Assembly: GCA_030621215.1 (NCBI GenBank)
Contig: JAUXIC010000003.1
Span: forward strand, 1-55,251
DNA from: Caldisericota bacterium
Lineage (GTDB): Bacteria > Caldisericota > Caldisericia > Caldisericales > Caldisericaceae
DNA: 55,251 nucleotides
Direction of reading: 5' to 3'
A program made the position numbers and the translations under genes. The notes under the pieces are model-generated. The model saw only the letters and a program-made list of their open reading frames with translations. It searched no databases and had not been told where the DNA came from. Shown here piece after piece: positions 4,343-31,098 of the stretch (position 1 is the stretch's first letter; each line of letters opens with the position of its first letter).

Positions 4343-5746
4343 ATGAGAGAAATTAAAGAACATCCTGTACTGGATTTCAAAAAACAGGGAAAAATTCATT
4401 TTGTATTCGAGGGCAAAGAAATAGAGGCATATCAAAATGAAACGATTGCAATGGCATTGTATCGAAACGACTTGAATGTATTCTCTGAAAGCACTAAACT
4501 CCACAGGCCAAGAGGAATGTTCTGCGCAATAGGAAAATGCTCATCCTGTATGATGCGGGTAAACGGCATACCCAATATAAAAACATGCGTACTTCCCGTA
4601 AGAGAAAAAATGGTTGTTGAAAGACAAAATGGAATGGGAGAAAAACCAGACAAGATCGAACATTTCCCGCCTCCAATCGAAATAAATAGAGACATAGTCA
4701 TTATTGGCGGAGGACCAGCAGGCTTAAGCGCCGCAATTACGCTTAAAAAATACGGAGTGTCGCCGTTAATCGTTGAACAAAATCCACTTCTTGGAGGGCA
4801 GCTTATCAAACAAACGCATAAATTCTTTGGTTCGGAAAGAGAGAAAGCAGGAACAAGAGGCATAAAAATCGCGTCCGAAATGATTAACACAATAAAAAAA
4901 GAGAATATTGAAAATTTTGTAAGCAGTGCTGTATTCGGCTTCTATCCCCCTGATACAATTGGTGTATTCAAAAAAAATCAATTTGTAAAAATTAGAAGCA
5001 AATATTTTATATTCGCCACAGGAGCCGCAGAGAAAATGATACCATTCCCGGGAAATGATATTCCAGGAGTATTCGGCGCAGGCGCAGCACAAACATTAAC
5101 GAATGTCTTCGGCATAAAACCAGGAAAATCTATCTTAATGGTGGGAGCAGGAAATGTTGGCCTGATTGTTTCATACCAAATGCTTCAGGCTGGTATCAAC
5201 GTAAAAGGAGTAATCGAAGCTCTGCCCGGCATTGGAGGGTACTTTGTACATGCAGCAAAACTCAGACGCTTTAATGTACCAATCCTTACCAGCACAACAA
5301 TTAAAGAGGTAAACGGAAACAAACATGTTGAACAGGCAGTGACAATAGGCCTTGATGAAAAATTCAACGAAATTCCCGGCACAGAAAAAACATGGGATGT
5401 GGATACAGTATGTCTCTCTACGGGCCTTATACCATCAGTAACATTGCTTGCACAAGCAGGATGCCAATTAAAGTACGTGCCCTCTCTTAGCGGATATGTC
5501 CCAATAAGAAACAGGTTTCTTGAAACATCTCTTAAAAATACATTTGTAGCAGGAGATATTGATGGAATAGAAGAAGCATCAACCGCTATGATAGAAGGAA
5601 CAACTGCTGCATGCTCAGTGCTCATTAAAATGGGAAAAGATGCAACAAAAGAAAGAGAATCTTCTATAAAAGAATTGAACATATTACGAAGTGGGCCTTT
5701 CGGAAAAAAAATAAGAGAAGGACTGAAAGAGGTACAATATGAGTAA
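4343..5746 (+). CDS. Fused 2Fe-2S / NAD(FAD)-dependent oxidoreductase (sarcosine oxidase alpha / HcnA-HcnB-like)
   Basis: N-terminal HRPRGMFCAIGKCSSCMMRVNG 2Fe-2S domain, then IVIIGGGPAGLSAAITLKK FAD motif and FVAGDIDGIEEA. Confidence 0.85.
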   Translation: MREIKEHPVLDFKKQGKIHFVFEGKEIEAYQNETIAMALYRNDLNVFSESTKLHRPRGMFCAIGKCSSCMMRVNGIPNIKTCVLPVREKMVVERQNGMGEKPDKIEHFPPPIEINRDIVIIGGGPAGLSAAITLKKYGVSPLIVEQNPLLGGQLIKQTHKFFGSEREKAGTRGIKIASEMINTIKKENIENFVSSAVFGFYPPDTIGVFKKNQFVKIRSKYFIFATGAAEKMIPFPGNDIPGVFGAGAAQTLTNVFGIKPGKSILMVGAGNVGLIVSYQMLQAGINVKGVIEALPGIGGYFVHAAKLRRFNVPILTSTTIKEVNGNKHVEQAVTIGLDEKFNEIPGTEKTWDVDTVCLSTGLIPSVTLLAQAGCQLKYVPSLSGYVPIRNRFLETSLKNTFVAGDIDGIEEASTAMIEGTTAACSVLIKMGKDATKERESSIKELNILRSGPFGKKIREGLKEVQYE

Positions 5747-6233
5747 TTTTTTAAAGACAGGGTTTTTGAAAACAGAGGATATAAAAGAAAATTTTCCATC
5801 AGCGGAAAGAATCAAAAAAAAACCTGTTGCTATCATTGAATGCCCACAGGAAATCCCGTGTAACCCCTGCGTCACATCCTGCGCAGCACAGGCAGTCTCA
5901 ATGAAAACAATCAATAGCATTCCCGATATAGATTTTGATAAATGCATTGGCTGCGGAAACTGCATCAAAATTTGTCCGGGACTTGCAATCTTTCTTATAA
6001 ACATAAAAGATGGAAATGGGATAGTAAGCTTGCCATATGAAATGCTGCCGACACCAAAAAGAAGAGAAAAGGTTAACCTCTTGAATAGAAAAGGTGAAAA
6101 AATAGGAAAAGGAACAGTGACAAAAATTATTCTGCCGGAAAAAGACACAAGTGCTGCAATAATCACAGTACAGTTTAACGATCCGGAACTTGTGTATGAA
6201 GTAAGGAATATCGAGGTGCAAAATGAAAGATGA
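5739..6233 (+). CDS. 4Fe-4S ferredoxin-type subunit
   Basis: CIGCGNCIKICPG plus variant CPQEIPCNPCVTSC cluster. Confidence 0.8.
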   Translation: MSNFLKTGFLKTEDIKENFPSAERIKKKPVAIIECPQEIPCNPCVTSCAAQAVSMKTINSIPDIDFDKCIGCGNCIKICPGLAIFLINIKDGNGIVSLPYEMLPTPKRREKVNLLNRKGEKIGKGTVTKIILPEKDTSAAIITVQFNDPELVYEVRNIEVQNER

Positions 6234-6495
6234 AGAAATTATTATCTGCAGATGCGAAGATATTACGTTAAAAGAAATAAAAGATGCAATTCATAAAGGA
6301 TATAAAGATATTGAATCACTACGAAAATATTTACAACTAAGCGCAGGGCCTTGCCAGGGAAAAACATGCATTCCTCTAACAGAAAAAATTCTTGCACAAG
6401 AATTAAAAAAAAGAATTGATGAAATAGCAATGCCTACAACACGCCCGCCCGAAACTCCTGTGCCATTCGGAATATTTTCAAAGGCAAAGAAATGA
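6223..6495 (+). CDS. BFD-like (2Fe-2S) subunit
   Basis: IIICRCEDITLKEI...SAGPCQGKTC (CxC...CxxxxC). Confidence 0.85.
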   Translation: MKDEEIIICRCEDITLKEIKDAIHKGYKDIESLRKYLQLSAGPCQGKTCIPLTEKILAQELKKRIDEIAMPTTRPPETPVPFGIFSKAKK

Positions 6496-7625
6496 AAAAT
6501 CGTAACGTTGTAATCATTGGTGGAGGCATTACAGGACTTGCCGCCGCATACTACCTTGTTAAATCTGGCATTAAAAATATCTCTATTCTTGAAAAATCTT
6601 ACTTGGGCTCTGGATCCACAGGAAGATGTGGCTCAGGCATACGACAACAATTTACAACAAAAGAACATATCGTTTTAATGAAGGAGAGCGTAAAACTCTG
6701 GAAAGAATGGAATAATGACCTTCCAATACCCATTCATTTTGAACAAGGTGGTTATCTATGGCTTTTAAGCAATAAAAAAGAACTCGCCCAATATAAAGAA
6801 TACGTAACATACCAAAATACATTTGGCGTAGAGAGTATTATTATATCAGCTAAAGAAGCAAAAGAAATTGTACCGGATTTAAACACAGACAAGGTAATAG
6901 GAGCAAGTTGGTGCCATACAGATGGAAATGCATACCCTTTCGACGTAACAAACGCACTGCAAACATTTCTTAAAAGGGAAAAAGTAGAAATAAATACGTT
7001 TGAAGAAGTAAATAAAATTCATGTAAAAAATGATAAAATTCAAGAAGTAGTTACCAATAAAAACAGGTATGCAACAAATACTGTAATAAACGGTGCTGGA
7101 TACGGAGCAAAATATATAGGGCAATTAGCCGGATTAAACCTCCCATTGCAACCATACAGACATCAAATTGCAGCCAGCGAACCAATGAACAATTTTTTAG
7201 GCCCAATGATTGTAAAAGGCGGATTATATTTTTTACAAACTCATAGGGGAAGAATTGTAGGCGGGACAGACTTAAAGGAACCCCCGCTATCAAATTTAAA
7301 CTCAACGTTAAACTTCCTGGAAGAGTATTCAAAACAAATTATAAGTGTTTTGCCAATTATCTCTTCAGTAAACATAATGAAACAATGGGCAGGGTATTAC
7401 ATAGTAACACCTGATCGTCATCCAATATTAGGACCGACAAAAATAAATGGATTCGTACTGGGATGCGGATATTCAGGACATGGTTTCATGTTAGGCCCGG
7501 TTGTAGGCAAGCTTCTTGCCTCACTCATCGTTCATAAGAACATGTATATTGCTGAAGCAAACAATCTCACCTTAGAGCGCTTTAAAACAGGAAAACTCAT
7601 CAAGGAAAGAGCTGTAATTGGATAA
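6492..7625 (+). CDS. FAD-dependent oxidoreductase, DAO family (sarcosine oxidase beta / L-proline dehydrogenase beta-like)
   Basis: NVVIIGGGITGLAAAYYL, STGRCGSGIRQQF, GTDLKE, TPDRHPILGP...GCGYSGHGFMLGP. Confidence 0.88.
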   Translation: MKNRNVVIIGGGITGLAAAYYLVKSGIKNISILEKSYLGSGSTGRCGSGIRQQFTTKEHIVLMKESVKLWKEWNNDLPIPIHFEQGGYLWLLSNKKELAQYKEYVTYQNTFGVESIIISAKEAKEIVPDLNTDKVIGASWCHTDGNAYPFDVTNALQTFLKREKVEINTFEEVNKIHVKNDKIQEVVTNKNRYATNTVINGAGYGAKYIGQLAGLNLPLQPYRHQIAASEPMNNFLGPMIVKGGLYFLQTHRGRIVGGTDLKEPPLSNLNSTLNFLEEYSKQIISVLPIISSVNIMKQWAGYYIVTPDRHPILGPTKINGFVLGCGYSGHGFMLGPVVGKLLASLIVHKNMYIAEANNLTLERFKTGKLIKERAVIG

Positions 7626-8650: not shown

Positions 8651-8678
8651 TTGACTTTTCTAAATAAACATATAAAAT
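8651..8678 (+). promoter_or_regulatory. Putative sigma70-type promoter for the regulator-acn-icd-aclBA operon
   Basis: TTGACT-N16-TAAAAT. Confidence 0.45.
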
Positions 8679-8689
8679 GCGGATGGTGT

Positions 8690-8725
8690 TAAAATTTTTT
8701 GTAAGCTGCTAAAATTTTTTGTAAG
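8690..8725 (+). repeat. 16-bp direct repeat, 20-bp period, in leader
   Basis: taaaattttttgtaag at 8690-8705 and 8710-8725. Confidence 0.9.
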
Positions 8726-8734
8726 GAGCAGAAA

Positions 8735-9430
8735 ATGCCTTCAAAAGAAGATGAGGCAATTATAAGAGCGTTAAAACCAGTAATAAAAGGTATTGCAGCA
8801 TTACTCGGAAAAAACTGTGAAGTCGTATTGCATTCATTTATAAACTCGCAACATTCAATTATCGCCATCGAAAATGGAGAAATTACAAACAGACAAGTCG
8901 GTTCATCTCTCACTAATTCAGGACTGGAAATATTAAATGAAGCAATCCAAAATAATAAAGAAATCGTAGGCCCATACAAAAGCGTTTCCCCTGTAGGAAT
9001 TCCGCTACGTTCTGTTACTGTCCCTATCCGGAACAGAAAAGGCAAATTGATAGCTTCCCTTTGTCTTAATATGAATCTTACTGCGGCTATTTCACTGGAT
9101 GAATTTTTTACATCACTTACGCAATTTGCAGAAGATAAGACCTTAAGCAAAAATATCTCAAAAAATACATCTCACTCTACTATCGGATTAATGAAAAAAA
9201 TCTTTGACGAAGTTGCTTACGCTGTAAGTACAAAAAACAATCTTTCAGCAAGCCAAAAAAATAAGTTAATTGTAAAAAAATTACGCAACAGACAATTCTT
9301 TCAGATTAAAAATTCAGTCGAATTTATAGCTAATAAATTAAACGTATCGCAATTTACAATTTATAACTATATAAGAGAAATAAAAAAATCGGAAGGAGAA
9401 GGAGGCAATAATGGGAAAAAGTATCATTGA
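8735..9430 (+). CDS. YheO-like PAS/HTH transcriptional regulator
   Basis: IKGIAALLGKNCEVVLHSFINSQHSIIAIENGEITNRQVGS plus C-terminal HTH NKLNVSQFTIYNYIREIKK. Confidence 0.85.
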   Translation: MPSKEDEAIIRALKPVIKGIAALLGKNCEVVLHSFINSQHSIIAIENGEITNRQVGSSLTNSGLEILNEAIQNNKEIVGPYKSVSPVGIPLRSVTVPIRNRKGKLIASLCLNMNLTAAISLDEFFTSLTQFAEDKTLSKNISKNTSHSTIGLMKKIFDEVAYAVSTKNNLSASQKNKLIVKKLRNRQFFQIKNSVEFIANKLNVSQFTIYNYIREIKKSEGEGGNNGKKYH

Positions 9431-11369
9431 AAAAATCATTGAGAGCCACATTGTAGATGGTATCCCGAAAAAAGAAGAAGAAATCGGCCTGCACATTGAT
9501 CAGACACTCACACAAGACGCAACAGGGACTGCAACATACCTTGAATTTGAAGCAATGGGATTTAAAGAAGTAAAAACAGAAGCAGTCAGTTATGTAGATC
9601 ACAACACCGTTCAGGTAGGTTTTGAAAATGCTGATGACCATCGGTATTTACAGTCCGTTGCAAAAAAATACGGCATCACATTTTCCCGTCCAGGAAACGG
9701 CATTTGTCATCAAGTACAACTAGAGCGATTTGCAAAACCCGGAAATGTTTTAATAGGTACAGACTCCCACACGCCAACAGCAGGAGGCATTGGAGAAATG
9801 GCAATCGGCGTCGGAGGGCTTGATGTAGCAGTTGCAATGGGAGGAGGCCCATTCTACCTCACATACCCAAAAATAATAAGAATAGAGCTTACAGGAAAAT
9901 TGCAGCCCTGGGTTTCGGCAAAAGACGTTATACTAAAAATCTTATCCATACTTACAACAAAAGGCAACGTAGGCTACGCAATAGAATATGGTGGAGATGG
10001 TGTAAAGACGCTTCCCATTCCGGAACGTGCAACAATTACAAATATGGGCGCAGAAACAGGAGTAACTACGTCTATTTTCCCTTCCGATGAGCAAACACAC
10101 GATTTTATGAAAAAACAAGGAAGAGAAAAGGATTGGATTCCACTTGAAGCCGATCCAGATACACATTACGACAAAATAATAAAAATCAATCTTTCAGACA
10201 TAGAGCCAATGGTTGCATGCCCTGATTCGCCAGGTAATGTAAAAACAGTAAAAAAAATTGCCGGGTTGAAAGTTGACCAGATTGCCATCGGAAGCTGCAC
10301 AAATTCTTCGTATAAAGATTTAATGACTGTTGCGCATATTCTGAAAAATCACATTACAAATGAAGACGTTGAGTTTGGTGTAGCGCCAGGATCAAAGCAA
10401 GTAATAGAAATGATAGAAAAAGAGAGAGGTTTATCATCAATTATAAAAGCAGGAGCAAGAATTTTAGAATCTGCTTGCGGTTTTTGCATCGGCAACAGCT
10501 TTGCCCCCGGAACAGATGCTGTGTCTGTCAGGACAAATAACCGGAATTTTAAAGGACGCTGCGGAACAAAAAGCGCAAAAGTATACCTTGTAAGCCCGGA
10601 AACAGCTGCCGCAACAGCCATAACAGGAAAAATTACAGATCCAAGAGACCTGGAGAAAATGGGGGTTAAATATGAAGAAATAAAAATGCCAGAAACATTT
10701 GAAATAGACGACTCTATGTTTATCTTTCCGCTTCCGGAAAAAGAAAGAGAAAAAATAGAAATATTTAAAGGCCCGAACATAAAACCAATCCCAAAAAATG
10801 AACCTCCGCGAGAAACAATAAATGGCGTTGTAACAATTAAGGTAGAGGATAAAACAACGACAGATCATATAATGCCTGCAGGTCCCTATCTTAAATACCG
10901 TTCAAATGTACCAGAATACGCAACTCATGTATTTGAGCCCATAGACCCGCATTTCTCCGAGCGTGCTCTAAAAAATAAAGAGCAAAATATAGCAAATATT
11001 ATTGTAGCAGGAGAAAGTTATGGCCAGGGTTCATCAAGAGAACACGCAGCACTATGCCCAATGTATCTCGGCGTAAAGGCAGTTATCGCAAAGACAATAG
11101 AACGGATACACCAGGCAAACCTTGTAAATTTTGGCATAGTGCCTTTATTATTTAACAATCCTTCAGATTATGATGAAATAGAACAAGGAGATAGTATCGA
11201 AATATCTGACATAAAAAAGGTAATAGAAACCGGAGGAAAAGACATTAAAGCAAAAAATGTAACAAAAAATAAAGACATAACACTCAAATTATATCTTACA
11301 GATATGCAACGAAAAATCATACTCGCTGGAGGGCTCCTGCCCTTTACAGCAAAAGGAGATGTAAAATGA
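9411..11369 (+). CDS. acn: Aconitate hydratase
   Basis: [67 protein letters not shown]. Confidence 0.95.
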
Positions 11370-12586
11370 AAATTACAGTAGAAAACGGCAAAATGCATGT
11401 ACCAGACAATCCCACAATTCCATACATAACTGGAGATGGAATCGGGAGAGACATTACACCTGTTGCTATGAAGGTATTTGATGCAGCAGTGGAAAAAGCT
11501 TACAACGGCCAAAGAAAAGTCGAGTGGCTAAAAATCCTTGCAGGAGAAGAAGCATTAGAAAAAAAGGGAGAACCGCTTCCGGAGGAAACAATAGAAGCAA
11601 TAAAAGAACATGTTGTTGCAATAAAAGGCCCTCTTACCACGCCAGTCGGCGGTGGGTACAGATCGCTCAATGTCACTATGAGGCAAGTTATGGACCTGTT
11701 TGTCTGCTTCCGTCCAGTAAGATATTTTGATGGCGTACCCTCGCCCATGAAACACCCGGAATTGCTGGACGTAATTATATTCAGAGAAAATACAGAAGAT
11801 GTGTATGCTGGAATCGAATGGCCATATGATTCAAAAGAAGCAATTGAGGTCCAAAACTTCCTGAAAGATAAATTAAACGTCGATATAAAAGAAAACTCAG
11901 GCATCGGAATAAAACCAATCAGCGTATCCGGCTCAAAGAGGATAGGGAAAGCAGCCATTGACTACGCACTTAAATATGGAAGAAAATCAGTAACAGTCAT
12001 GCACAAAGGAAATATTATGAAATACACAGAAGGGCTCTTCAAAAATGCAATTTATCAACTTGCAGAAGAAGAATATAAAGATACAGTAATCACCGAAAAA
12101 GAATTAACGGAAAAATACAACGGCAAATTACCTGACGGGAAAATCCTTTTGAATGATAGAATTGCAGATGCAATGTTCCAGCAGATACTACTCCGTCCCA
12201 GTGAATATGATATAATTGTCGCACCAAACCTGAACGGTGACTATATTTCAGACGCCTGTGCCGCACAGGTTGGCGGATTAGGTATGGCACCGGGGGGAAA
12301 CATAAACTTTAATACCCACATTGCACTGTTTGAAGCAACACATGGTTCTGCCCCAAAACATGCAGGAAAAAACGAAATAAATCCAGGTTCGATGCTTCTA
12401 TCCGGTTCTGAAATGTTTGAGTATATGGGCTGGGATGAGGTCAAAAAAGTAATTATTACTGCGATAGAGAAGACTATCAAAGAAAAATACGTAACCTACG
12501 ACCTTGCAAGGCAAATAGACGATGCAATAAAAGTATCTACTTCAGATTTTGGTGACAGGATAATCAAAAACATGGAGAATGCCTAA
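11366..12586 (+). CDS. icd: Isocitrate dehydrogenase (probably NADP-dependent)
   Basis: [71 protein letters not shown]. Confidence 0.95.
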
Positions 12587-13845
12587 TGGCACAACGCGGA
12601 ATAAGAGAATACACAGCAAAAAAACTTTTGTCGAAATATATTAATGAATACTCCAGCGGAAAATTTCAGTATAAAGGTGAAGTAGCCCTTATATCCCCTG
12701 AAACCAGTATTGGAACGATTGCAGAAAAAAATAGCTGGATTAAAGAAAAACGCCTTGTTGTAAAACCTGACCAGCTATTTGGAAAAAGAGGGAAGCACAA
12801 TCTTGTGCTGCTTAATGCAACATATGAAGAGGCAAAACAGTGGATAAATGAAAAAATGGGAAAGGTCGTTAAAATTGGGCAAACAAAAGGACCGCTGACT
12901 CACTTTCTCGTAGAGCCATTTGTTCCGCACACTAAAGAATACTACATTGCAATTAAAACTGAACAAGACGGAGATAAAATATATTTTTCTGAAACTGGCG
13001 GAGTAGAAATTGAAGAAAATTGGGAAAATGTAAAAGAATATTTTGTCCCTGTTCTTGAAACGATAGATACCTTAAACTTCTCAACTGTAGATGAAACGAT
13101 AAAAGAATTCATAAAAGCGCTATACAAATTATTTGCAGAACTGGACTTCACATACTTTGAGATAAATCCTTTCACAATAATCAACAATGAAGTTATTCCA
13201 CTGGACCTCGTAGCACGGCTGGATGACACAGCTCTGTTCTGGAATAAAGATAAATGGGGAGATATTGAATTTCCCAACCCATTTGGAAGAACATTTACTG
13301 AAAAGGAGCAATTTATAAGAGACCTGGACGAAAAAACCGGTGCCTCATTAAAGTTAACCATACTTAATCCGAAAGGGCGTGTCTGGCAGATGGTAGCAGG
13401 TGGTGGAGCAAGCGTTGTATATGCAGACACAGTAATAGATCTCGGATATGGCAAAGAACTTGCAAGTTACGGAGAATACTCAGGCAATCCATCCGAGGAA
13501 GAAACTTACCTTTATGCAAAAACCTTACTGGAACTTATGACAAGAGAAAAGAACCCGAAAGGTAAAATATTAATCATAGGCGGAGGCATTGCAAATTTTA
13601 CTGATGTTGCGAAAACATTTAAGGGAATCATAAGAGCAATAAAAGAATATAAAGATAAGATAAAAGAAAACAATGTAAACATATATGTAAGAAGAGGGGG
13701 GCCAAATTACAAACAAGGACTTGCCCTTATGCAAAATTTAGGAGAAGAGACCGGTATCCCAATTGAAGTATACGGCCCAGAACTTAGCATGACTCGTATT
13801 GTTGGTATTGCCCTGAAAGGAGAGAGAGATGAAACAGCTATTTAG
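12586..13845 (+). CDS. aclB: ATP-citrate lyase, small subunit (ATP-grasp plus citrate-binding region)
   Basis: REYTAKKLLSKYI, RLVVKPDQLFGKRGKHNLV, GGGASVVYADTVIDLGYGKELASYGEYSGNPSEEETYLYAKTLLELM. Confidence 0.93.
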   Translation: MAQRGIREYTAKKLLSKYINEYSSGKFQYKGEVALISPETSIGTIAEKNSWIKEKRLVVKPDQLFGKRGKHNLVLLNATYEEAKQWINEKMGKVVKIGQTKGPLTHFLVEPFVPHTKEYYIAIKTEQDGDKIYFSETGGVEIEENWENVKEYFVPVLETIDTLNFSTVDETIKEFIKALYKLFAELDFTYFEINPFTIINNEVIPLDLVARLDDTALFWNKDKWGDIEFPNPFGRTFTEKEQFIRDLDEKTGASLKLTILNPKGRVWQMVAGGGASVVYADTVIDLGYGKELASYGEYSGNPSEEETYLYAKTLLELMTREKNPKGKILIIGGGIANFTDVAKTFKGIIRAIKEYKDKIKENNVNIYVRRGGPNYKQGLALMQNLGEETGIPIEVYGPELSMTRIVGIALKGERDETAI

Positions 13846-15664
13846 CAAAGAATCCCAGAGCATTATATACGGCAAACAACTAAAAGCAGTTCAGCGGATG
13901 TTAGATTTTGACTATATCTCTCAAAGAAAAATACCATCTATTGCATGCATTGTAGACCCCAACGGCAGCGGAATCGAAACAGCATTTTTCGGGAGCAAAG
14001 AAATCATAATACCAGTTTACAATACCATTAGCGATGCGGTAAAACATCACCCCAATGCAACAATAATGATTAATTTTGCATCATACCGTTCCGCCTTTGA
14101 AACAACAGTTCAGGCACTGGACATCTCTACGATTGATCTTATTACAGTCATTGCAGAAGGAATACCAGAACGAAAAGAAAGAATAATGAGAGCTTTAGCC
14201 AAAGAAAAAGGGAAAATAATTATTGGCCCTGCAACAGTAGGAGGCATTGTCTCGGGTAAATTTAGAATCGGCAATACTGGAGGAAGCGTTGAAAATCTCA
14301 TTGCATCAAAACTTTACAGAAGTGGAAGCGTGGGGCTTGTAACAAAATCGGGAGGCCTGTTAAACGAAATGTTTAACATCATTGCAAGAGCAGCGGATGG
14401 CATTAATGCGGGCATTGCGATTGGAGGAGACAGATATCCATGCTCTTCCCTCATCGACCATCTACTGCGCCACGAAGAAAACGAAGAAATTAAATTTCAT
14501 GTAATGCTCGGAGAAGTGGGCGGAAAAGAAGAGTATAAAGTTGTTGAAGCGCTAAAAAGTAGAAAAATCAAAAAACCACTTATCGCCTGGGTCACAGGAA
14601 CATGTGCAAAAATATTTCCAACAGAAGTGCAATTTGGACATGCGGGAGCGCGCGCGGGTGGCGAACAAGAAACAGCAGATGCAAAAAATATCGCCCTGAA
14701 AGAAGCAGGAGCCATTGTCCCAGATTCTTTTGACGGATTATTTGAAAAGACAAAAGAAGTTTATGACAGCTTAAAATCCCAGCATATTATTAGCGAAATT
14801 GAAGAATTTACTCCACCTGAGATACCCGTCGATTTCAAAAAAGCAGTAGAACAAAGCATCATAAGATACCATAAAGAATTTATAACAACAATTTCAGATG
14901 ACAGGGGTGAAGAAGTAAAATATGCAGGCATCCCTTTATCACAAATTATAGAAGAAGGAAAAAGCATAGGAGATGTTATAGGTCTACTATGGCTCAAGAA
15001 AAAGCTCCCAGAATATGCCACAAAATTCATCGAGCTTGTCATTGAAATTGTAGCAGATCATGGACCTTGTGTCTCTGGAGCACACAACGCCATAGTAGCA
15101 GCACGGGCAGGAAAAGACCTCGTTTCCGCATTAGCCTCTGGTATGCTCACCATTGGACCTCGCTTTGGAGGCGCAATAGATGGAGCAGGGCATTATTTTA
15201 AATGGGCAAAAGACAGCGGTCTCACGCCAAAAAAATTTGCTGATGAAATGAAGAAAAAAGGTATACCCGTCCCTGGTATAGGCCACAGGGTAAAAAGCAT
15301 AAGAAACCCGGACAAAAGAGTAGAGTTGCTTAAAAATTATGCAAAAACATACTTCCCAAAAACAGAATATCTTGATTACGCTCTTGAAGTAGAAAAAATT
15401 ACAACGGCAAAGAAAGAAAACCTTATCTTAAATGTCGATGGTTGTACAGGCGTTTTACTTGTAGACCTAATGAAATCTATCGGCTTTACAAATGAAGAAA
15501 TAGAGAAAAGAATTAATGCGGGTGTTTTAAATGCATTCTTTGTGGTAGGAAGAAGCATCGGTATAATTGGTCACATCATTGACCAGAAACTCCTTGAAAC
15601 AAAACTTTACAGAACTCCATACGAAGACGTACTTTACACATTACCGAGGGAAGAAAAATTATAA
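13829..15664 (+). CDS. aclA: ATP-citrate lyase, large subunit (CoA-binding plus citrate-synthase-like domain)
   Basis: GNTGGSVENLIASKLYRSGSVGLVTKSGGLLNE, phospho-His motif FGHAGARAGG, DHGPCVSGAHN, PGIGHRVKSIRNPDKRV. Confidence 0.95.
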   Translation: MKQLFSKESQSIIYGKQLKAVQRMLDFDYISQRKIPSIACIVDPNGSGIETAFFGSKEIIIPVYNTISDAVKHHPNATIMINFASYRSAFETTVQALDISTIDLITVIAEGIPERKERIMRALAKEKGKIIIGPATVGGIVSGKFRIGNTGGSVENLIASKLYRSGSVGLVTKSGGLLNEMFNIIARAADGINAGIAIGGDRYPCSSLIDHLLRHEENEEIKFHVMLGEVGGKEEYKVVEALKSRKIKKPLIAWVTGTCAKIFPTEVQFGHAGARAGGEQETADAKNIALKEAGAIVPDSFDGLFEKTKEVYDSLKSQHIISEIEEFTPPEIPVDFKKAVEQSIIRYHKEFITTISDDRGEEVKYAGIPLSQIIEEGKSIGDVIGLLWLKKKLPEYATKFIELVIEIVADHGPCVSGAHNAIVAARAGKDLVSALASGMLTIGPRFGGAIDGAGHYFKWAKDSGLTPKKFADEMKKKGIPVPGIGHRVKSIRNPDKRVELLKNYAKTYFPKTEYLDYALEVEKITTAKKENLILNVDGCTGVLLVDLMKSIGFTNEEIEKRINAGVLNAFFVVGRSIGIIGHIIDQKLLETKLYRTPYEDVLYTLPREEKL

Positions 15665-15685: not shown

Positions 15686-15723
15686 ACCCCCCCCTTCCTG
15701 TCAGCTAGATAAGGAGGGGGGTT
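15686..15723 (+). terminator. Terminator after aclA
   Basis: acccccccccttcct-loop-aggaggggggtt hairpin. Confidence 0.65.
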
Positions 15724-15770: not shown

Positions 15771-16491
15771 ATGCCGATATTTTATTATCATGTTAAAAAG
15801 GATGCACAAGAAATAACAGTTGAAGAAAAAACTCTTATTCACCACCTTAGAGACGTAATGAGGGTTGGTAAAAATGAAAGCGTAAGATTCTTCAACAGTA
15901 ATTAGTAATTATATATATATCACAAAAGTAAAAGAAGCTACAAAAACAAAAATTGTTTGCCACATCGAAAAGAAAAGAAGAGTCAGACAATTCTTGCCGG
16001 AAATTTCAATCGTCCAGTCTGTTATTAAACCCCACCTACTGGAAGAAGTAATAAAGCTCTGCGTTCCTGTAGGAGTACAAACGTTTTTCTTTGCAAAAAC
16101 GGATAAAAGCCAATATAACATAGAAAAGAAAATCCAACGATTCAATGCAATTGCACTATCTGTAGCAGAGCAATCAGAAGTTGCGTTTATCCCAAAAATA
16201 GCCCTGCTAAATGGAATAGAAGATTTTTGTAAGCTAAAAGACAAGGGATTCCCTATTGTACTGGAGCCATTTGCTCAACAAAGCATTATGTCCCTCTTAA
16301 AAAATACAATGCCCAAAAAACTATCAATTATGGTAGGGCCTGAGGGTGGCTTTAGCAGAAAAGAAATAGAAATATTTAAAGCCTATAACATACCTTTTGT
16401 TTTCTTGAATACAGGGATGTTCCGCTCAGAACTCGCAGGATTTGCAAGCACACTTATAGTAAGAGAGCTTGTATCGAATCGCCAACAATAG
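15771..16491 (+). pseudogene. rsmE: 16S rRNA m3U1498 methyltransferase RsmE, frameshifted
   Basis: Frame from 15771 gives MPIFYYHVKKDAQEITVEEKTLIHHLRDVMRVGKNESVRFFNSN*; +1 frame continues NYIYITKVKEATKTK...IVQSVIKPHLLEEVIKLCVPVGV...MVGPEGGFSRKEIE...RSELAGFASTLIV. Confidence 0.85.
15897..15910. repeat. 7-bp tandem duplication (agtaatt x2) at the rsmE frameshift
   Basis: agtaattagtaatt read directly; removing one copy restores the rsmE frame. Confidence 0.9.
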
Positions 16492-16503: not shown

Positions 16504-17874
16504 TTACTTAAGTAGTTCCTTTGAAATTTTATTGTGTTTATCGATAAATTTTTTCTCGTCTATTTTTGTAAAATGCCCTTCTTCTATTATCACCTGTCCA
16601 TTAATCATTGAGAAATCCACAGATTTTGCATCGCAAAGCACAAGGGACGCAACGGGATCAGTAAGTCCTCCCGCAAATTCAAGCCGATCCATCTTAAAGC
16701 CAATGATGTCTGCTGCCTTGCCCTTTTCAATAGAACCAATTTCTTTCCCCATCCTTAAAACTTTTGCCCCTCCGGCTGTAGCAAAAGATAAAGCTTCGCG
16801 TGGAGTCAAGGCATCTGCACCATACTTTACGCGTTGAAGAAGTAGCGCATTTCTGATTTCGAGCAAAAAGTTTCCTGTATCATTTGAAGAGCTTCCATCA
16901 ACTCCTAACCCGATTTTCATTGCCGTATTCTTCATTTTAGCGACAGGCGCAATACCAGAGCCCAGTCTCATATTTGAAGTAGCGCAGTGGGCCATACCCA
17001 CATTGTGAGCGGAAAGTTTTTCTATATCCTGTTCGCTCACATACACAAGATGAGCAAACCATACATTTGAATCCAGCCATCCTACTTTTTTCATATAATC
17101 AACAGGTCTCAATCCGAACTTAGAGAGACAAAACTCATCTTCATCCTTTGTTTCTGCAAGATGAGTATGTAGCAAAAGATTATACTTCTGCGCAAGAGCA
17201 ACACTTTCACGCATCAATTCTTCAGTAACAGAAAATGGTGAGCAGGGCGCAAGAGCAACCCGGCACATAGAAAAACGGGAGGGATCATGATATTTTTCAA
17301 TAACCCGCTCTGAATCACTTAAAATTTCATCTTCGGTTTGTACTACAGAATCCGGAGGTAATCCCCCATCCTTTTTAGAGAGAGACATACTGCCTCTTGT
17401 CCCGTAGAAACGCACCCCCGTGATATCAGCCCCTTCCACCTGCGCATCAAATAGATAGGGATGCCCTTTTGGGAAAAGGTATAAATGGTCAGTCGTGGTC
17501 GTAACACCACTTTTTATCATTTCAAGGATAGCTGTAACTGTAGATATCATCACGGCTTCCTCGTCAATGTTCTTCCATTTTTCATAAAGAAAAATCAACC
17601 AATCAAATAATTTTGTATTCTGTACCTCGGGAACTGCCCTGAAAAGTGATTGGTAAAAATGATGGTGGGTATTAACAAATCCAGGTAAAACAACCATTCC
17701 TTTCCCGGAAATTTCTCTATCAATCTCAAAATCAGGACAAACTTCACTCCCTACTTCTTTTATTACATTATCTTCGATATAAATCCATCCATTGTTAATT
17801 TCTGTTAGGTTCTTGTTAAATGTAGCAATAATATCGATATCTCTAATTAGTGTTCTCATTGCATTTTTCTTCAT
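16504..17874 (-). CDS. Amidohydrolase, 8-oxoguanine deaminase / chlorohydrolase family
   Basis: GFVNTHHHFYQSLFRAVPEVQNTKLFDWLIFLY, HTHLAETKDED, GVDGSSSNDTGNFLLEIRNALLLQR. Confidence 0.82.
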   Translation of the reverse strand: MKKNAMRTLIRDIDIIATFNKNLTEINNGWIYIEDNVIKEVGSEVCPDFEIDREISGKGMVVLPGFVNTHHHFYQSLFRAVPEVQNTKLFDWLIFLYEKWKNIDEEAVMISTVTAILEMIKSGVTTTTDHLYLFPKGHPYLFDAQVEGADITGVRFYGTRGSMSLSKKDGGLPPDSVVQTEDEILSDSERVIEKYHDPSRFSMCRVALAPCSPFSVTEELMRESVALAQKYNLLLHTHLAETKDEDEFCLSKFGLRPVDYMKKVGWLDSNVWFAHLVYVSEQDIEKLSAHNVGMAHCATSNMRLGSGIAPVAKMKNTAMKIGLGVDGSSSNDTGNFLLEIRNALLLQRVKYGADALTPREALSFATAGGAKVLRMGKEIGSIEKGKAADIIGFKMDRLEFAGGLTDPVASLVLCDAKSVDFSMINGQVIIEEGHFTKIDEKKFIDKHNKISKELLK

Positions 17875-20149
17875 TCTTTTGTAAGAGAGTGTAAACCAAC
17901 TCGCTTGTTGCGGGCAATTTGAAAATTCTTACACCAACTGCATTATAGATAGCATTTGTAATAGCAGGAGCAGTGGCACACATAACGGTTTCCGCAACTC
18001 CTTTCGAGCGGTATGGTCCTGTTTCTTCAGGGTTAACAACTGTTACCGTTTCAATTTCAAAAGGTACATCCTCTACTGACGGAATAATGTATGTCGAAAA
18101 ATTTGTTGTTTTGAATACCCCTTTCTCAATAACAGTGTTTTCAAAAAGCCCATACCCCATACCCATAACAAAACCACCCTCAGTCTGTGCCTCAAGTCCC
18201 TGTCTGTTTACTATATCTCCTGCATCAATTACCTCGGCGCCCTTCAATACTTTTGTTTGGCCAGTAAGTGTGTTTACTTCGACAAGTGCAAGATGGACAG
18301 AAAATGCAAAGATATGGTGAGGAAGCCCAAAAGCATTTTCAACTTTCATATCCGCAAGTGGCATAAGAAAATGACCCTCAGTCTCGGGAAGATGATGCAA
18401 CTCTTTCATAAATTGTGCTGCAATCTCTTCGTACGAAACCCTTTTTTCTGGCCGGTTTTTCATGCATATATAACCATTTTCAGCATCAAGATCCTTAACA
18501 GAAGTTTCTAACATTTCAGCTGCTTTCTCTTTTAAAATCGTCATCATATTTTCTGCCGCAATGATAGTTGCCTTTCCACCTAAATACAGCCCCCTTGATG
18601 CACTTGTAGGGCCAGAATCTGCAGTCAAAGTAGTATCTCCCAGCAAAACTCTTATTTTGTCTATTGGGCATTTCATCATTTCTGCTGCAATTTGTGCATA
18701 TGAAGTGCCAATTCCCTGGCCATAATCCACCATGCCTACACCAACCTCAAAACCGCCATTTTCACAAAACTTTAAAATAGCACCACCGTAATCAGGAAGT
18801 CCAACTCCGAGACCAGTACCCTGATATGTGAGAGCAAAACCAAAACCCCTTTTAATCCATGGCTTTTTAGTATTTTTTACAAGATATTTTTCTCTTTCCT
18901 TCCACAGTTTCGTTTTGCTTATACCTTCCAACACAGCTACAGTGCCTACGCTTGTTGTGAGCTTATTCCCTACGGGAGCTATATCTCCCTTTCGCAAAGC
19001 ATTTTTCCTGCGCAATTCAATGGGGGCAATCCCTAATTTTTCAGCTATGATGTCCATCTGTGTTTCAACTGCAAACGCTGTTTGCGGAACTCCAAACCCC
19101 CGAAACGCACCAGAGACACCATTGTTCGTATAAATACAATAACCTTCTATGTCTACATTAGATAATTTATAAGGACCACAAGCATGCTCTATGGCAAGAT
19201 TTACCACAGGGCCGCCAAGCGATGCATACGCCCCGGTATCCGCATATATTGTCACTTTATTTACTATTAATGTTCCGTCGTTTTTAACGCCTGTTTTATA
19301 CTTCATAATCATTGGATGTCTTTTCCAGTAAGAAATAATGGATTCCTCGCGTGTCATCACCATTTTAACCGGCCTCTTTGTCCTTAACGCAAGTAACCCT
19401 AAGACTGGCTGGATAGTAAGCTCATCTTTCCCGCCAAATGCACCGCCAACAGGATAAGAAACAACACGAATCTTATGAGGGTTCAGTGCAAGACAGCGAG
19501 AGAGTTGCATTTGATCCCGGTGAGGATACTGTGATCCTGCATAGATAGTCAAAATATTATCTTCTTCAATCCTGGCAACCCCGGTTTCCATCTCTAAAAA
19601 TGCATGCTCTTGCCTTTCTGTACAGTAAGTATGTTCTACTATGAGATCTGCTTCCTTAAAGGCTTTTTCAACATCACCACGAACAACCTTCGTATGAAGA
19701 TGAATATTTCCACCATCATGCACTTTTGGCGAATCAGATTGTGTTGCTTCAATCAGATCATCCACAACAGGCAGCGGTTCATACTCAACATCTATGAGAG
19801 CAAGAGCTTTTTCAGCCAATTCTCCTGTCTCTGCAGCAACAGCGGCAACAGCATCTCCAACATACCGGACTTTGTCCTTACATAAAACAGGCTGATCCGG
19901 CGTAACGATGCCAAAACCATTTAAGCCGGGAACATCTTCATGCGTGACAACAGCAATAACACCGGGAAGAGCTTTTGCCTGCGATGTATCAATCTTTTTT
20001 ATCAACGCGTGCGGATATTTTGCTCGTAATATTTTGCCGAAGAGCATTCCGGGAAAATTAAGGTCGGACATGTATTTAATTTCTCCGGAAGCCTTATCTG
20101 CAGCATCTATTCTTGGTACACTTTTTCCTATATATTTAAAATCTTCCAT
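17843..20149 (-). CDS. Xanthine dehydrogenase family protein, molybdopterin-binding subunit
   Basis: GGAFGGKDE, GAFRGFGVPQ, MVDYGQGIGTSYAQIAAE; start set to MEDFKYIGKSVPR downstream of aaaggtgtgag. Confidence 0.9.
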   Translation of the reverse strand: MEDFKYIGKSVPRIDAADKASGEIKYMSDLNFPGMLFGKILRAKYPHALIKKIDTSQAKALPGVIAVVTHEDVPGLNGFGIVTPDQPVLCKDKVRYVGDAVAAVAAETGELAEKALALIDVEYEPLPVVDDLIEATQSDSPKVHDGGNIHLHTKVVRGDVEKAFKEADLIVEHTYCTERQEHAFLEMETGVARIEEDNILTIYAGSQYPHRDQMQLSRCLALNPHKIRVVSYPVGGAFGGKDELTIQPVLGLLALRTKRPVKMVMTREESIISYWKRHPMIMKYKTGVKNDGTLIVNKVTIYADTGAYASLGGPVVNLAIEHACGPYKLSNVDIEGYCIYTNNGVSGAFRGFGVPQTAFAVETQMDIIAEKLGIAPIELRRKNALRKGDIAPVGNKLTTSVGTVAVLEGISKTKLWKEREKYLVKNTKKPWIKRGFGFALTYQGTGLGVGLPDYGGAILKFCENGGFEVGVGMVDYGQGIGTSYAQIAAEMMKCPIDKIRVLLGDTTLTADSGPTSASRGLYLGGKATIIAAENMMTILKEKAAEMLETSVKDLDAENGYICMKNRPEKRVSYEEIAAQFMKELHHLPETEGHFLMPLADMKVENAFGLPHHIFAFSVHLALVEVNTLTGQTKVLKGAEVIDAGDIVNRQGLEAQTEGGFVMGMGYGLFENTVIEKGVFKTTNFSTYIIPSVEDVPFEIETVTVVNPEETGPYRSKGVAETVMCATAPAITNAIYNAVGVRIFKLPATSELVYTLLQKNEEKCNENTN

Positions 20150-20151
20150 AC

Positions 20152-21039
20152 TCACACCTTTCTCTTCCAATCATTAGCAGACAGTTCAAGCAACCCTTCG
20201 TACAAAAGATTTATACTCATATCCTGCCGGTATTTAAGAGATGCTCTTATATCAGATATTGGAGAGACCTCCCTGAAAGCAAGTCGTGCAATGTAATGAA
20301 TCTGCTCAGGGGAATCTAAAGAACTGCTAATAATAGCTTTTTCTACTCTTCGCCCTCTTACAACTGTCGGCGCAACTGCCCCAAACGCAACAACTGCCCT
20401 ATCAAACGCATTTGTTCCTGCTTCTCTTATTCTCATTTTTACTGCAACATTCAAAACAGCTATCGCAAGCGCATCTCTTTGGCCCAATTTTTTAAAGAAA
20501 CCTGTTTCGTTTTCTTCAAGTTCAGGCATAAAAATATCAACAAGTAATTCATTTGGCTCTAAAACAGTCTTTCCCGGTCCTGTAAAAAATTCTTCAATAG
20601 AAACAACTCTCTCTCCGTTAATACTTTTAAGTTTAAGCCTTGCGGCCTGAACAAATAACGCAGAAATAGAATCGCCAGCGGGAGAAGCATTTACTATGTT
20701 TCCGCCAAGCGTTCCTCTGTTCCGTATTTGTGGAGAGCCAATAGTAGCACATGCTTCTCTTAAAATAAAAGCATATTTGCTTATAGTTTCTGACTCTAAA
20801 ATATCTGTGTGGGTAGTTAAAGGTAAAAGGTGAATTGCGCCATTTTCTCTAAAGATATCGTTTAATTCTTTAATCCTGCTAATATCTAAAATATTATTTT
20901 CTTCTACCATATCCTGTTTTAATCTTACAACAAGATCGGTACCTCCCGCAAGAATCCTTATATCCTGTTTAAACTCGTCAAGATATTGTAGTGCGCTGTC
21001 AATTGTGTCAGCTCTTAAATAGTTCAGTGCCTTCATCAT
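20152..21039 (-). CDS. Xanthine dehydrogenase family protein, FAD-binding subunit
   Basis: LAGGTDLVVRLKQ, ATIGSPQIRNRGTLGGNIVNASPAGDS; listed ORF start 21075 is upstream of likely Met. Confidence 0.9.
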   Translation of the reverse strand: MMKALNYLRADTIDSALQYLDEFKQDIRILAGGTDLVVRLKQDMVEENNILDISRIKELNDIFRENGAIHLLPLTTHTDILESETISKYAFILREACATIGSPQIRNRGTLGGNIVNASPAGDSISALFVQAARLKLKSINGERVVSIEEFFTGPGKTVLEPNELLVDIFMPELEENETGFFKKLGQRDALAIAVLNVAVKMRIREAGTNAFDRAVVAFGAVAPTVVRGRRVEKAIISSSLDSPEQIHYIARLAFREVSPISDIRASLKYRQDMSINLLYEGLLELSANDWKRKV

Positions 21040-21853
21040 GTATTTTTTTCTCTGTTTTAACTTTGTCAACCGCACCCCTTCTTACGGCAATTATCTCTGC
21101 AAGGATAGCAATCGCAATCTCAAAAGGAGTATCTCCCTCTATAGCAATACCCGTAGGAGCATATATGCTGTCCAAAAAATCGCTGCTTATTCCTAACTCT
21201 TTCGCCTTTTCAAAACATTTGCTCCTCCTGTTTAAACTCCCTATCATGCCGATATACTGGTACCTTATATTTTTTTCATACAGTGCCTTTAAGATATATG
21301 GATCATCTTCTCCGCCTGATGTCACAATAACAACAACCGCACCATCATTTAGAGGTATATTTCTCGCAGTTTCATAAAAATTGCTATTCACAAATACGGA
21401 TGCCTTGGGAAACATTTCTTCACTCACAAAATCTACTCTTTTATCAGAAACTATCACATCAAAAAAATCATCCAGCATAGTTATATCATACAATTTTTTC
21501 CCAATGTGCCCCGCACCAAATACCACAAATTGCTGTTTCGGTCCCACATATTCCATATACACAGAAAGTGTTCCCCCACACACCATACCAAGGGAAGTTT
21601 CATCGCCCTCTTTCAAAGTATATGTCTTTAAAAATGGCTTTCGCGTTCTAAACAAATTCATCGCAGTGTCTACTACATCTTTTTCAACAACGCCTCCGCC
21701 AACCGTACCAAAAAATTTGCCGTTAGGTAGAATCACCATTTTAAAACCTGTTTTACCCGCAGTTGAATTTTCTGCGTTAACAACAGCTGCTAAAACAAAC
21801 TCTTTCCTATCATGGATAAGTTCCACGATTTTTTCATAAATTTCCTGCATCAA
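21008..21853 (-). CDS. XdhC/CoxI family protein (molybdenum hydroxylase maturation)
   Basis: FVLAAVVNAENSTAGKTGFKMVI, FGAGHIGKKLYDI, YIGMIGSLNRR, APTGIAIEGDTPFEIAIAILAEIIAVRRG. Confidence 0.88.
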   Translation of the reverse strand: MMQEIYEKIVELIHDRKEFVLAAVVNAENSTAGKTGFKMVILPNGKFFGTVGGGVVEKDVVDTAMNLFRTRKPFLKTYTLKEGDETSLGMVCGGTLSVYMEYVGPKQQFVVFGAGHIGKKLYDITMLDDFFDVIVSDKRVDFVSEEMFPKASVFVNSNFYETARNIPLNDGAVVVIVTSGGEDDPYILKALYEKNIRYQYIGMIGSLNRRSKCFEKAKELGISSDFLDSIYAPTGIAIEGDTPFEIAIAILAEIIAVRRGAVDKVKTEKKIHDEGTELFKS

Positions 21854-22826
21854 TAAAACCCCCTTCGCTCATTTTTATAAGTGTATCACGAGAAATTATA
21901 TAATTGGAAAGTATAATTGGCATAATTTTGTGAAAACTTGTCCCCTTCTCCATAAATCCCGCGGAAGAAGGAATGCCAAGAATAACTTTTTCATCCTTGT
22001 ATGCCAAAAGAAATGTAGTTCCCGGCCATATTGGCACGCCATACATCACGATATCTGCACCCATTTTTTCAATTCCTTCAACTGTCTTGTCATCCGGGTC
22101 AACAGCCATACCGCCCATATATATTGTGATATCCGAACCTTTTTCAAAAGCATCCATTCCACTCTCACGGATCTGGGAAACATCATCAGGAAGAACTTTT
22201 TCCAAAACAATGTCCTGCCCCATCTGTTCAAGATATTGCTTTACCCGTCCACTCATTGTTTCTTCTCGTCTTCCCTCGATGAATTCGTTTCCAACAGAAA
22301 AAAGAGCTATTTTATGATTTTTCACAGACAAAAGGTTTATAATGGGATAATATTCCCCTGCAATATTCCTTATTTCATCCATTTCAGCTACCGGTATCTC
22401 AAGCGGCATTACTTTGCCTATGGCAACAGGAGCGCCTTTTTCTACGAACGAAAAACTGCGCTTTGCAGCAACACGCGGATTTTTTAATCGATTTATTTCT
22501 TCAAGCCCTTTCGTATTGATAATAAAAACGCCTCTTTCTTCAGCAAAGAGCTTGACTTTGGATTCGCTTGGAGGACCCACTCTGAGATTTTCCTTTTTCA
22601 TTAAATTCATCATCTCTGTCGCCGCATCATCTTCGTGAATAAAACCTTCTCTCTCGCCAAACACCCACACATAATGTTTCCCTATTGAAAGAAGAGGCGC
22701 AATATCATCTTTTCCTATAATATGCCCTTTCTTAAAAAGAGGGCCTTTTTTAATGCCGGGAACAACTTCTGTCACATCGGCGCCTAAAATTTTCCCTACT
22801 GCTTTTTGCGTTTCTATTTTTTCCAT
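21834..22826 (-). CDS. Molybdopterin-binding (MoeA/CinA-like) protein
   Basis: KAVGKILGADVTEVVPGIKKGPLFKKGHIIGKDD...VGNEFIEGRREETMSGRVKQYLEQMG. Confidence 0.8.
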   Translation of the reverse strand: MEKIETQKAVGKILGADVTEVVPGIKKGPLFKKGHIIGKDDIAPLLSIGKHYVWVFGEREGFIHEDDAATEMMNLMKKENLRVGPPSESKVKLFAEERGVFIINTKGLEEINRLKNPRVAAKRSFSFVEKGAPVAIGKVMPLEIPVAEMDEIRNIAGEYYPIINLLSVKNHKIALFSVGNEFIEGRREETMSGRVKQYLEQMGQDIVLEKVLPDDVSQIRESGMDAFEKGSDITIYMGGMAVDPDDKTVEGIEKMGADIVMYGVPIWPGTTFLLAYKDEKVILGIPSSAGFMEKGTSFHKIMPIILSNYIISRDTLIKMSEGGFIDAGNL

Positions 22827-23422
22827 ATATCCTTAATCCTCTCATATTCTTTTTTTGTATCCATATCAATAAGAATCTTATTGCTTTTCATTTCTAAAAA
22901 TTTTATTATGTCGTTATGTCTGCCTAACACATCTTTTAATGTCGTCTTCTCCGCATCCATTGCCAAAATTTCGTCTTTCATCGCATAAGGGATTATAATG
23001 GGATGCCCTTTTCTTCCCTGAAAGGTTGGAATAAGCACTTTCCCTTTGATATAATGTTCTGTTAATTCATTAATAATGTCACTTGTAATAAGCACCTGAT
23101 CTCCAAGCCCTATCAAAATTCCCTCCGTTCCCTCTACCTCTGCCAGTCCTGCCTGAATGGAAGAAAACATTTCCTTTTTAAAATCTTTATTTATAATGAC
23201 CTTAAGTTTGCTGCTGCTAATTTTTCTATCATCAATAATTTCTTTAATATCATCCGCCCTATGCCCGAGAACCAGCACAATCTCAGAAAGGGATGACGCA
23301 AGATACTCACTTAAAACTGTTTCTACCACGGTTTTCCCGCCTATTGGGAGTAAGGGCTTTAATTTTCCCATCCGCTTTGACTCCCCTGCAAAAAGTAAAA
23401 TACCTTTAATTTTATTTGCCAA
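22814..23422 (-). CDS. Molybdenum cofactor cytidylyltransferase / NTP-transferase (MocA-like)
   Basis: GILLFAGESKRMGKLKPLLPIGGKTVVE...ILIGLGDQVLI...GHPIIIPY. Confidence 0.85.
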   Translation of the reverse strand: MANKIKGILLFAGESKRMGKLKPLLPIGGKTVVETVLSEYLASSLSEIVLVLGHRADDIKEIIDDRKISSSKLKVIINKDFKKEMFSSIQAGLAEVEGTEGILIGLGDQVLITSDIINELTEHYIKGKVLIPTFQGRKGHPIIIPYAMKDEILAMDAEKTTLKDVLGRHNDIIKFLEMKSNKILIDMDTKKEYERIKDIWKK

Positions 23423-23888
23423 TATCTTTACCCGCCTTTTCTACCGCCTTTATAATTTTTACATATCCCGTGCAACGGCAAAGATTTCCAGAAATCCCTT
23501 CTCTTATTTCAGCAATCGAAGGATTCGGGTTCTTGTTAAGCAGATAGAGAGATGACATTATCATACCCGGAGTACAGAAACCGCACTGCACCGCTCCTTC
23601 CTCCACAAATGCTTTTTGTATGGAAGGCAATTTTTTTTCAACTCCTGCCCCTTCAATTGTAACAATCTCTGCCCCATCTGCTTGAAGCGCAAGAATTAAA
23701 CAGGCATTCACGCTTCTACCGTTAAACAAAATTGTGCATGCACCGCATTCTCCTCTACCGCAGCCTTCTTTTGTTCCAGTAAGATACATTTTATCCCGTA
23801 TGACATCAAGAAGTACTGCATTGGCAGGAACACTCAGTTTGCACTCCTTGCCATTTAGAGTAAAACTAATATCTATTACCTGTGCCAT
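23412..23888 (-). CDS. Xanthine dehydrogenase family protein, 2Fe-2S subunit
   Basis: TKEGCGRGECGACTILFNG, QCGFCTPGMIMS, ISGNLCRCTGYVKI. Confidence 0.93.
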   Translation of the reverse strand: MAQVIDISFTLNGKECKLSVPANAVLLDVIRDKMYLTGTKEGCGRGECGACTILFNGRSVNACLILALQADGAEIVTIEGAGVEKKLPSIQKAFVEEGAVQCGFCTPGMIMSSLYLLNKNPNPSIAEIREGISGNLCRCTGYVKIIKAVEKAGKDIGK

Positions 23889-23889
23889 T

Positions 23890-30996: not shown

Positions 30997-31026
30997 TTGA
31001 CATATTTATATAGTGTATTGTATAAT
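30997..31026 (+). promoter_or_regulatory. Promoter of CofE-like gene
   Basis: TTGACA-N18-TATAAT. Confidence 0.7.
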
Positions 31027-31098
31027 TTTTTTAAGAAACTTCTTCAAAAGAGTATTAGGAATTTTGTCGCTTTGGTCATCCGAAGGGGAGGCGGTAGA

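Follow-up and report, generated by a model that had tools for sequence, protein, structure and literature searches.

ATP-citrate lyase (ACL), aconitase and NADP-dependent isocitrate dehydrogenase (NADP-IDH) catalyse reactions of the reductive tricarboxylic acid (TCA) cycle of Chlorobium, Hydrogenobacter and Nitrospirota. In mammalian reductive carboxylation the same three reactions, with a homologous ACLY, act on glutamine-derived 2-oxoglutarate; that route differs from the present case in its separate genes, compartments and lipogenic function, and an analogy alone is claimed. A two-subunit ACL is known structurally from Methanothrix (Methanosaeta) concilii (PDB 6HXI/6ZNW). In Desulfobacter postgatei, ACL runs oxidatively, making citrate and ATP (PMC12743299). 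Thermococcus kodakarensis degrades glutamate by glutamate dehydrogenase (GDH), 2-oxoglutarate:ferredoxin oxidoreductase (OGOR) and ADP-forming succinyl-CoA synthetase (SCS), and is without citrate synthase, succinate dehydrogenase (SDH) and malate dehydrogenase (MDH) (PMC11921379). Here an operon carrying genes for a YheO-type regulator, aconitase (aconitate hydratase, ACN), isocitrate dehydrogenase (IDH) and the two ACL subunits (yheO-ACN-IDH-aclB-aclA) is described in a stretch of 55,251 nucleotides (contig JAUXIC010000003.1, positions 1 to 55,251; hereafter the window). It belongs to a metagenome-assembled genome (MAG) of 1.17 Mb, 94% complete, from the Caldisericaceae (Caldisericota). Caldisericum respires sulfur compounds; a literature search found no paper on ACL in Caldisericota. 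On balance, the operon is best read as an isolated citrate limb turning amino-acid-derived 2-oxoglutarate into acetyl-CoA and oxaloacetate, the latter feeding phosphoenolpyruvate (PEP) carboxykinase (PEPCK), under a dedicated regulator. Its probable role is in using amino acids, not in growing on CO2.

Gene identities were examined using Pfam and NCBIfam profiles, which confirmed each of the five families named in the preliminary description of this locus (regulator, aconitase, IDH, AclB, AclA). The aconitate hydratase profile was matched with 920 bits (cut-off 612) and the NADP-IDH profile with 600 bits (cut-off 567); K331, Y378 and R382 of the latter enzyme correspond to E. coli K344, Y391 and R395, a His replacing Tyr345. 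AclB has the Citrate_bind (288 bits) and Citrate_synth_N (251 bits) domains together with an ATP-grasp, and AclA has CoA_binding/Ligase_CoA and the C-domain of Citrate_synt. The best PDB matches of AclB and AclA were the Methanothrix concilii ACLY-A/B chains (547 and 814 bits, 6HXI/6ZNW), followed by human ACLY and then, far lower, by Chlorobium limicola (195 and 450 bits). AclA retains its catalytic residues, namely the phospho-histidine H271 and, in the lyase part, H418, H485 and D537; they align to human H760, H900, H975 and D1026. Judged by sequence, AclBA is a true ATP-citrate lyase and belongs to the archaeal/human type, not to that of Chlorobium. The grouping of AclA/B with succinyl-CoA synthetase plus citrate synthase, which the preliminary description had named as a refutation, was tested and failed (547/814 bits to Methanothrix ACLY versus less than 100 bits to SCS chains). 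A Chlorobium-type ACL was likewise ruled out, the match to 6hxj being far weaker than that to 6hxi, and the analogy drawn earlier with Chlorobi and Aquificales is not supported. The Methanothrix enzyme has the same two subunits, domains and active-site residues; what sets the present case apart is its bacterial host and the joining of the ACL genes, in a single operon, with those for aconitase, NADP-IDH and a YheO regulator.

A search for ACL in 119 relatives (a strong match having E below 1e-50) gave strong matches in 11 further family members and two distant genomes (G063 and G115), and none in other members of the class outside the family, where weak matches in family f5 were SucC-like genes. 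The nearest named AclB relatives were Caldisericaceae/Caldiserica MAGs (75-89% identity). The complete order yheO-ACN-IDH-aclB-aclA was found in the window and in G002, G003, G004 (g1), G012 (g9), G005 (g2), G008 (g5), G006 (g3), G007 (g4) and G011 (g8); the contigs of G001 and G009 stop within the operon, so that their order cannot be judged. The operon was thus seen in all ACL-bearing genomes whose contig was long enough to judge, in seven genera (g1-g5, g8, g9). Since this order is kept across genera down to 41% regulator identity, it cannot be put down to chance, and the linkage between regulator and operon proposed in the preliminary description is real and lineage-wide. Clusters from Bathyarchaeum, Thermoplasmatales and a Euryarchaeota MAG (L032-L034) share the order ACN-aclB-aclA (54-66% identity), but are without yheO, and their IDH is either missing or a distant relative (31%) located after aclA. 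The ACL tree left the Caldisericaceae, archaeal and G063 sequences as an open fork, by which a transfer of ACL from archaea is neither supported nor rejected. In G063 a different IDH has been recruited to the cluster, a monomeric-type NADP-IDH of 741 aa lying between aconitase and aclB (L067:10332-12557).

Targeted profile searches of 18 family members, and the stretches read, showed which other central enzymes are present or absent; control genomes matched every profile. No stand-alone citrate synthase was found in these genomes, the domain occurring only in AclA and in one extra lyase-domain gene of G007. The flavoprotein of SDH or fumarate reductase (FRD) was matched in 2/18 genomes, both times by NadB-like genes beside nadC/nadA-like genes (by eye), leaving no genuine SDH/FRD. 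Class-I fumarase was found in 0/18 genomes (class II lay outside the search), as was LDH-type MDH (PF02866, LDH/MDH C-domain; the PF02615 type lay outside the search). SucC was absent from all ACL-bearing genomes and present only in the ACL-less genus g7 (ACD-type synthetase lay outside the search). PEPCK was present in every ACL-bearing genome, as an ATP or a GTP type; three genomes, from other genera, had a domain of pyruvate carboxylase type. GDH reached the threshold in 17/18 genomes, the genome of the window giving a weak match only and its four congeners a clear GDH; in G003, GDH adjoins a gene of the acetate/butyrate-kinase family and one for a 2-oxoacid oxidoreductase. The genome of the window has Por-like, Kor-like and Ior genes, PorA remaining under the equivalog cut-off. 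Of the enzymes to be sought in the rest of the genome according to the preliminary description, citrate synthase and fumarate reductase were not found by these profiles, and Por-like and Kor-like genes were. Its statement that the operon interconverts 2-oxoglutarate plus CO2 with acetyl-CoA and oxaloacetate is right. Its label of a reductive TCA operon is not supported, in view of the absences in ACL-bearing genomes. The PEPCK is of ATP type in g1, g2, g5, g6 and g9 and of GTP type in g3, g4, g7 and g8, the two never occurring together.

In genus g7 another module stands at the same site. Four genomes (G010, G015, G014 and G017; L088, L089, L093 and L094) have the order PyrRed-Fer4-(BFD)-DAO-yheO-sucC-sucD-korA-korB-korC-DASS, then pheS-pheT where the contig permits. 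The same flanks are seen in G007 (g4), where PyrRed-Fer4-BFD-DAO, iorBA, yheO-ACN-IDH-aclB-aclA, an extra lyase gene, ispE and pheS-pheT follow one another; the dehydrogenase side is retained in the window, G003 and G008, and the pheST side in G006 (g3) and G011 (g8). SucC, SucD, KorA and DASS of g7 scored above curated cut-offs, KorA and KorB being nearest to 2-oxoglutarate types, and the g7 yheO product has both PAS_6 and HTH_22. One 2-oxoglutarate module has been swapped for another at one site, with the regulator type retained. Because the two modules have only 2-oxoglutarate (and CoA/ATP) in common, the locus can be considered a 2-oxoglutarate switch, and the presence of the same regulator type ahead of the sucCD-kor module agrees with a role in 2-oxoglutarate metabolism more than in autotrophy. 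Polarisation of the exchange failed: in family f5 the SucCD genes lie beside YchF-like and amidohydrolase genes, off this locus, and the trees were without a suitable outgroup.

In the proposed scheme, NADP-IDH, aconitase and the two-subunit ACL would interconvert 2-oxoglutarate plus CO2 and acetyl-CoA plus oxaloacetate with no citric acid cycle attached in either direction. 2-oxoglutarate would be supplied from glutamate by GDH, and from proline-type amino acids by the adjacent flavin dehydrogenase, then reductively carboxylated to isocitrate and converted to citrate. Cleavage of citrate with ATP would yield acetyl-CoA (for acetate and lipids) and oxaloacetate (for aspartate, or for PEP through PEPCK), and the path from glutamate to these products would be redox-neutral if GDH and IDH use common NADP(H). 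In g7, the same regulator type at the same site would control KorABC and SucCD, giving succinate and ATP, with a dicarboxylate-type transporter. Analogy with the GDH-OGOR-SCS route of Thermococcus kodakarensis, whose logic the g7 module shares, suggests that the ACL module consumes 2-oxoglutarate; an incomplete cycle and an amino-acid lifestyle are common to both organisms, but ACL-bearing Caldisericaceae hold IDH-ACN-ACL at the site instead of OGOR plus SCS.

The flavin dehydrogenase adjoins the ACL operon and the alternative g7 module alike, and its nearest structure is the P. horikoshii complex 1Y56. This complex is an archaeal L-proline dehydrogenase according to literature cited in PMC4575208, where D-hydroxyproline and opine dehydrogenases are also placed in the group. 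The products of 1Y56-group enzymes lead mostly to glutamate or 2-oxoglutarate.

Several points weigh against the proposed scheme. Gene content gives no direction of flux: every enzyme concerned (ACL, aconitase, NADP-IDH, Kor and SucCD) is reversible, and both modules could make 2-oxoglutarate for glutamate, with PEPCK supplying oxaloacetate; succinate import through the g7 DASS transporter would also fit synthesis. The regulator of g7 is 39-45% identical to the others, compared with about 50-70% for the flanking dehydrogenase subunits and PheS, and its strict orthology rests on position more than on sequence. A KorAB-like pair lies outside the operon in the genome of the window, and some enzyme absences depend on one profile each, searched in MAGs with gaps. 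The main alternative, which we consider rather unlikely, is anabolic: ACL would be reversed as an ATP-yielding citrate synthase, with PEPCK providing its oxaloacetate and pyruvate:ferredoxin oxidoreductase its acetyl-CoA, aconitase and NADP-IDH would then make 2-oxoglutarate for glutamate, and the g7 sucCD-kor module would make it from imported succinate. ACL is the sole candidate for making citrate in ACL-bearing genomes, PEPCK accompanies it throughout, Por-like genes exist in the genome of the window, and the citrate-making direction is known in Desulfobacter postgatei (PMC12743299). However, the adjacent amino-acid dehydrogenase complex and the fermentation genes around GDH suggest that glutamate is supplied rather than limiting, and the OGOR and SCS pair is catabolic in Thermococcus (PMC11921379).

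A second alternative, that imported citrate is cleaved by ACL while aconitase and IDH form a side branch to glutamate, is improbable. The operon would cleave citrate and DASS-type carriers occur in the family, but the ACL-bearing loci that were read show no gene for a citrate transporter within or next to the operon, and IDH is always included.

Autotrophic CO2 fixation by a reductive TCA cycle shares the ACL, aconitase and NADP-IDH reactions with this locus and could draw on the Por-like and Kor-like genes, but it is largely refuted and was rejected on the cycle enzymes missing from the profile searches (FRD, class-I fumarase, LDH-type MDH, and SucC in ACL-bearing genomes), the nearest ACL being moreover not of Chlorobium type. 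Complete oxidation of acetate or peptides through an ACL cycle is just as implausible: ACL without citrate synthase and without SucC resembles the set of Desulfobacter, which uses a CoA-transferase, and ACL may likewise work in the citrate-making direction here, but the cycle of Desulfobacter postgatei is complete and SDH, class-I fumarase and LDH-type MDH were not found in the 18 genomes.

Returning to the dedicated switch that belongs to the 2-oxoglutarate-consuming scheme, the regulator matched PAS_6 with 119.7 bits in its N-terminal part and HTH_22 with 57.5 bits in its C-terminal part, both above cut-offs. Its AlphaFold model was moderate (pLDDT 71, pTM 0.46) and a structure search gave PAS-like matches at low TM with no hint of a ligand, so that the predicted fold, PAS-like plus HTH, is held with modest confidence. 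A 16-mer (TAAAATTTTTTGTAAG) occurs in two identical copies, 20 nt apart, between the -10 box and the yheO ribosome-binding site (8690-8725; 0 expected in shuffles). A 20-nt repeat is also present in g1, g9, g2 and g5 (0 to 9/2000 shuffles equally good), is weaker in g3 and in G015 (g7), is similar in G010 (g7) with a lag of 19 (6/2000), and was not significant in g4, g8, G014 and G017 by the shuffle test on upstream regions. A strict-pattern search for a motif common to the loci found nothing, while direct reading of the upstream regions did show repeats. These direct repeats are a candidate operator of the YheO regulator, and their position would allow the guess of a repressor or autoregulatory role: the PAS-HTH protein would probably bind the 20-nt-spaced repeats, which overlap its own operon's leader and ribosome-binding site.

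Coordinates of these elements are given in Table 1. The overlaps described earlier between the five genes were reproduced from the sequence (yheO/ACN 20 nt; ACN/IDH 4 nt, ATGA; IDH/aclB 1 nt, TAATG; aclB/aclA 17 nt), and each internal gene start is preceded by an AG-rich ribosome-binding site. The preliminary description also named a promoter and a terminator. Promoter consensus matches in the region are at chance level (25 found versus 24.9 expected), but boxes resembling -35 and -10 are again present 5' of yheO in ACL-bearing relatives. The hairpin 3' of aclA (minimum free energy, MFE, -24.4; z -2.35; 4/200 shuffles equally good) was unlisted by the pattern scan, which makes it moderate evidence for a terminator.

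Table 1. Features of the ACL locus and its surroundings (window coordinates)
Feature	Position	Strand	Assignment and basis
Four-gene flavin amino-acid dehydrogenase complex (PyrRed+2Fe2S, 4Fe4S, BFD, DAO)	4343..7625	+	Nearest solved relative P. horikoshii 1Y56
Sigma-70-type promoter TTGACT-16-TAAAAT (putative)	8651..8678	+	Consensus pattern; similar boxes in relatives
Candidate operator, two TAAAATTTTTTGTAAG copies, 20-nt period	8690..8725	+	Between -10 and yheO start; repeat conservation
yheO	8735..9430	+	YheO-type regulator, PAS_6 sensor and HTH_22 (Pfam/NCBIfam)
ACN	9411..11369	+	Aconitate hydratase by profile match; C296, C356, C359 where cluster ligands are expected
IDH	11366..12586	+	NADP type by profile and by K331/Y378/R382
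aclB	12586..13845	+	ATP-grasp and citrate-binding subunit of ATP-citrate lyase
aclA	13829..15664	+	CoA-binding/phospho-His and citryl-CoA lyase subunit; H271, H418, H485, D537
Probable transcription terminator hairpin	15689..15721	+	GC-rich fold

In one branch of the family AclA has changed. The proteins of G006, G007 and G011 (g3, g4 and g8; L061, L062 and L065) have NIGG in place of NVDG, by which the catalytic Asp becomes Gly; their clade has a long, then conserved branch, the lyase domain being 88-93% identical among the three. Only in G007 is aclA directly followed by a free-standing gene for a lyase domain whose residues are intact (L062:7226-8191). The Methanothrix 6ZNW chain has NVAG at the NVDG site and looks like a trapping mutant.

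Beyond the operon, an rsmE-like gene (window 15771-16491) is frameshifted near position 15900, beside an AT repeat, and has an intact copy of 245 codons in L035/L058; the frameshift is either real decay or an assembly error. Positions 16504-26392 hold genes for molybdenum hydroxylase subunits, an amidohydrolase and DHO_dh/Fer4 and Fer4_20/PyrRed (PreA/PreT-like) proteins, probably a purine/pyrimidine breakdown cluster, and positions 30997-31998 encode an F420-0:gamma-glutamyl ligase family protein of 334 aa.

Taken together, the locus may represent an undescribed form of anaerobic amino-acid catabolism, a suggestion that we advance tentatively. Glutamate-derived 2-oxoglutarate would be carboxylated rather than oxidised and then cleaved redox-neutrally by ACL; this module would have arisen by an in-place swap with KorABC-SucCD (in either order), with the PAS-HTH switch kept, and the catalytic Asp of AclA would since have been lost in one branch of the family. 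Its parts are known and newly combined, and an in-place exchange of 2-oxoglutarate pathways is unusual. The presence of ACL genes is widely taken as a sign that CO2 is fixed through the reverse citric acid cycle. For the Caldisericaceae, calling autotrophy from this marker would be a mistake, because here the ACL set is conserved and regulator-linked, yet detached from any cycle in small-genome thermophiles. Module exchange beside the same regulator type also gives the uncharacterised YheO/PAS_6 family a testable role, that of a glutamate/2-oxoglutarate sensor, and the Caldisericaceae provide a natural experiment on what a cell might gain by carboxylating 2-oxoglutarate rather than oxidising it.

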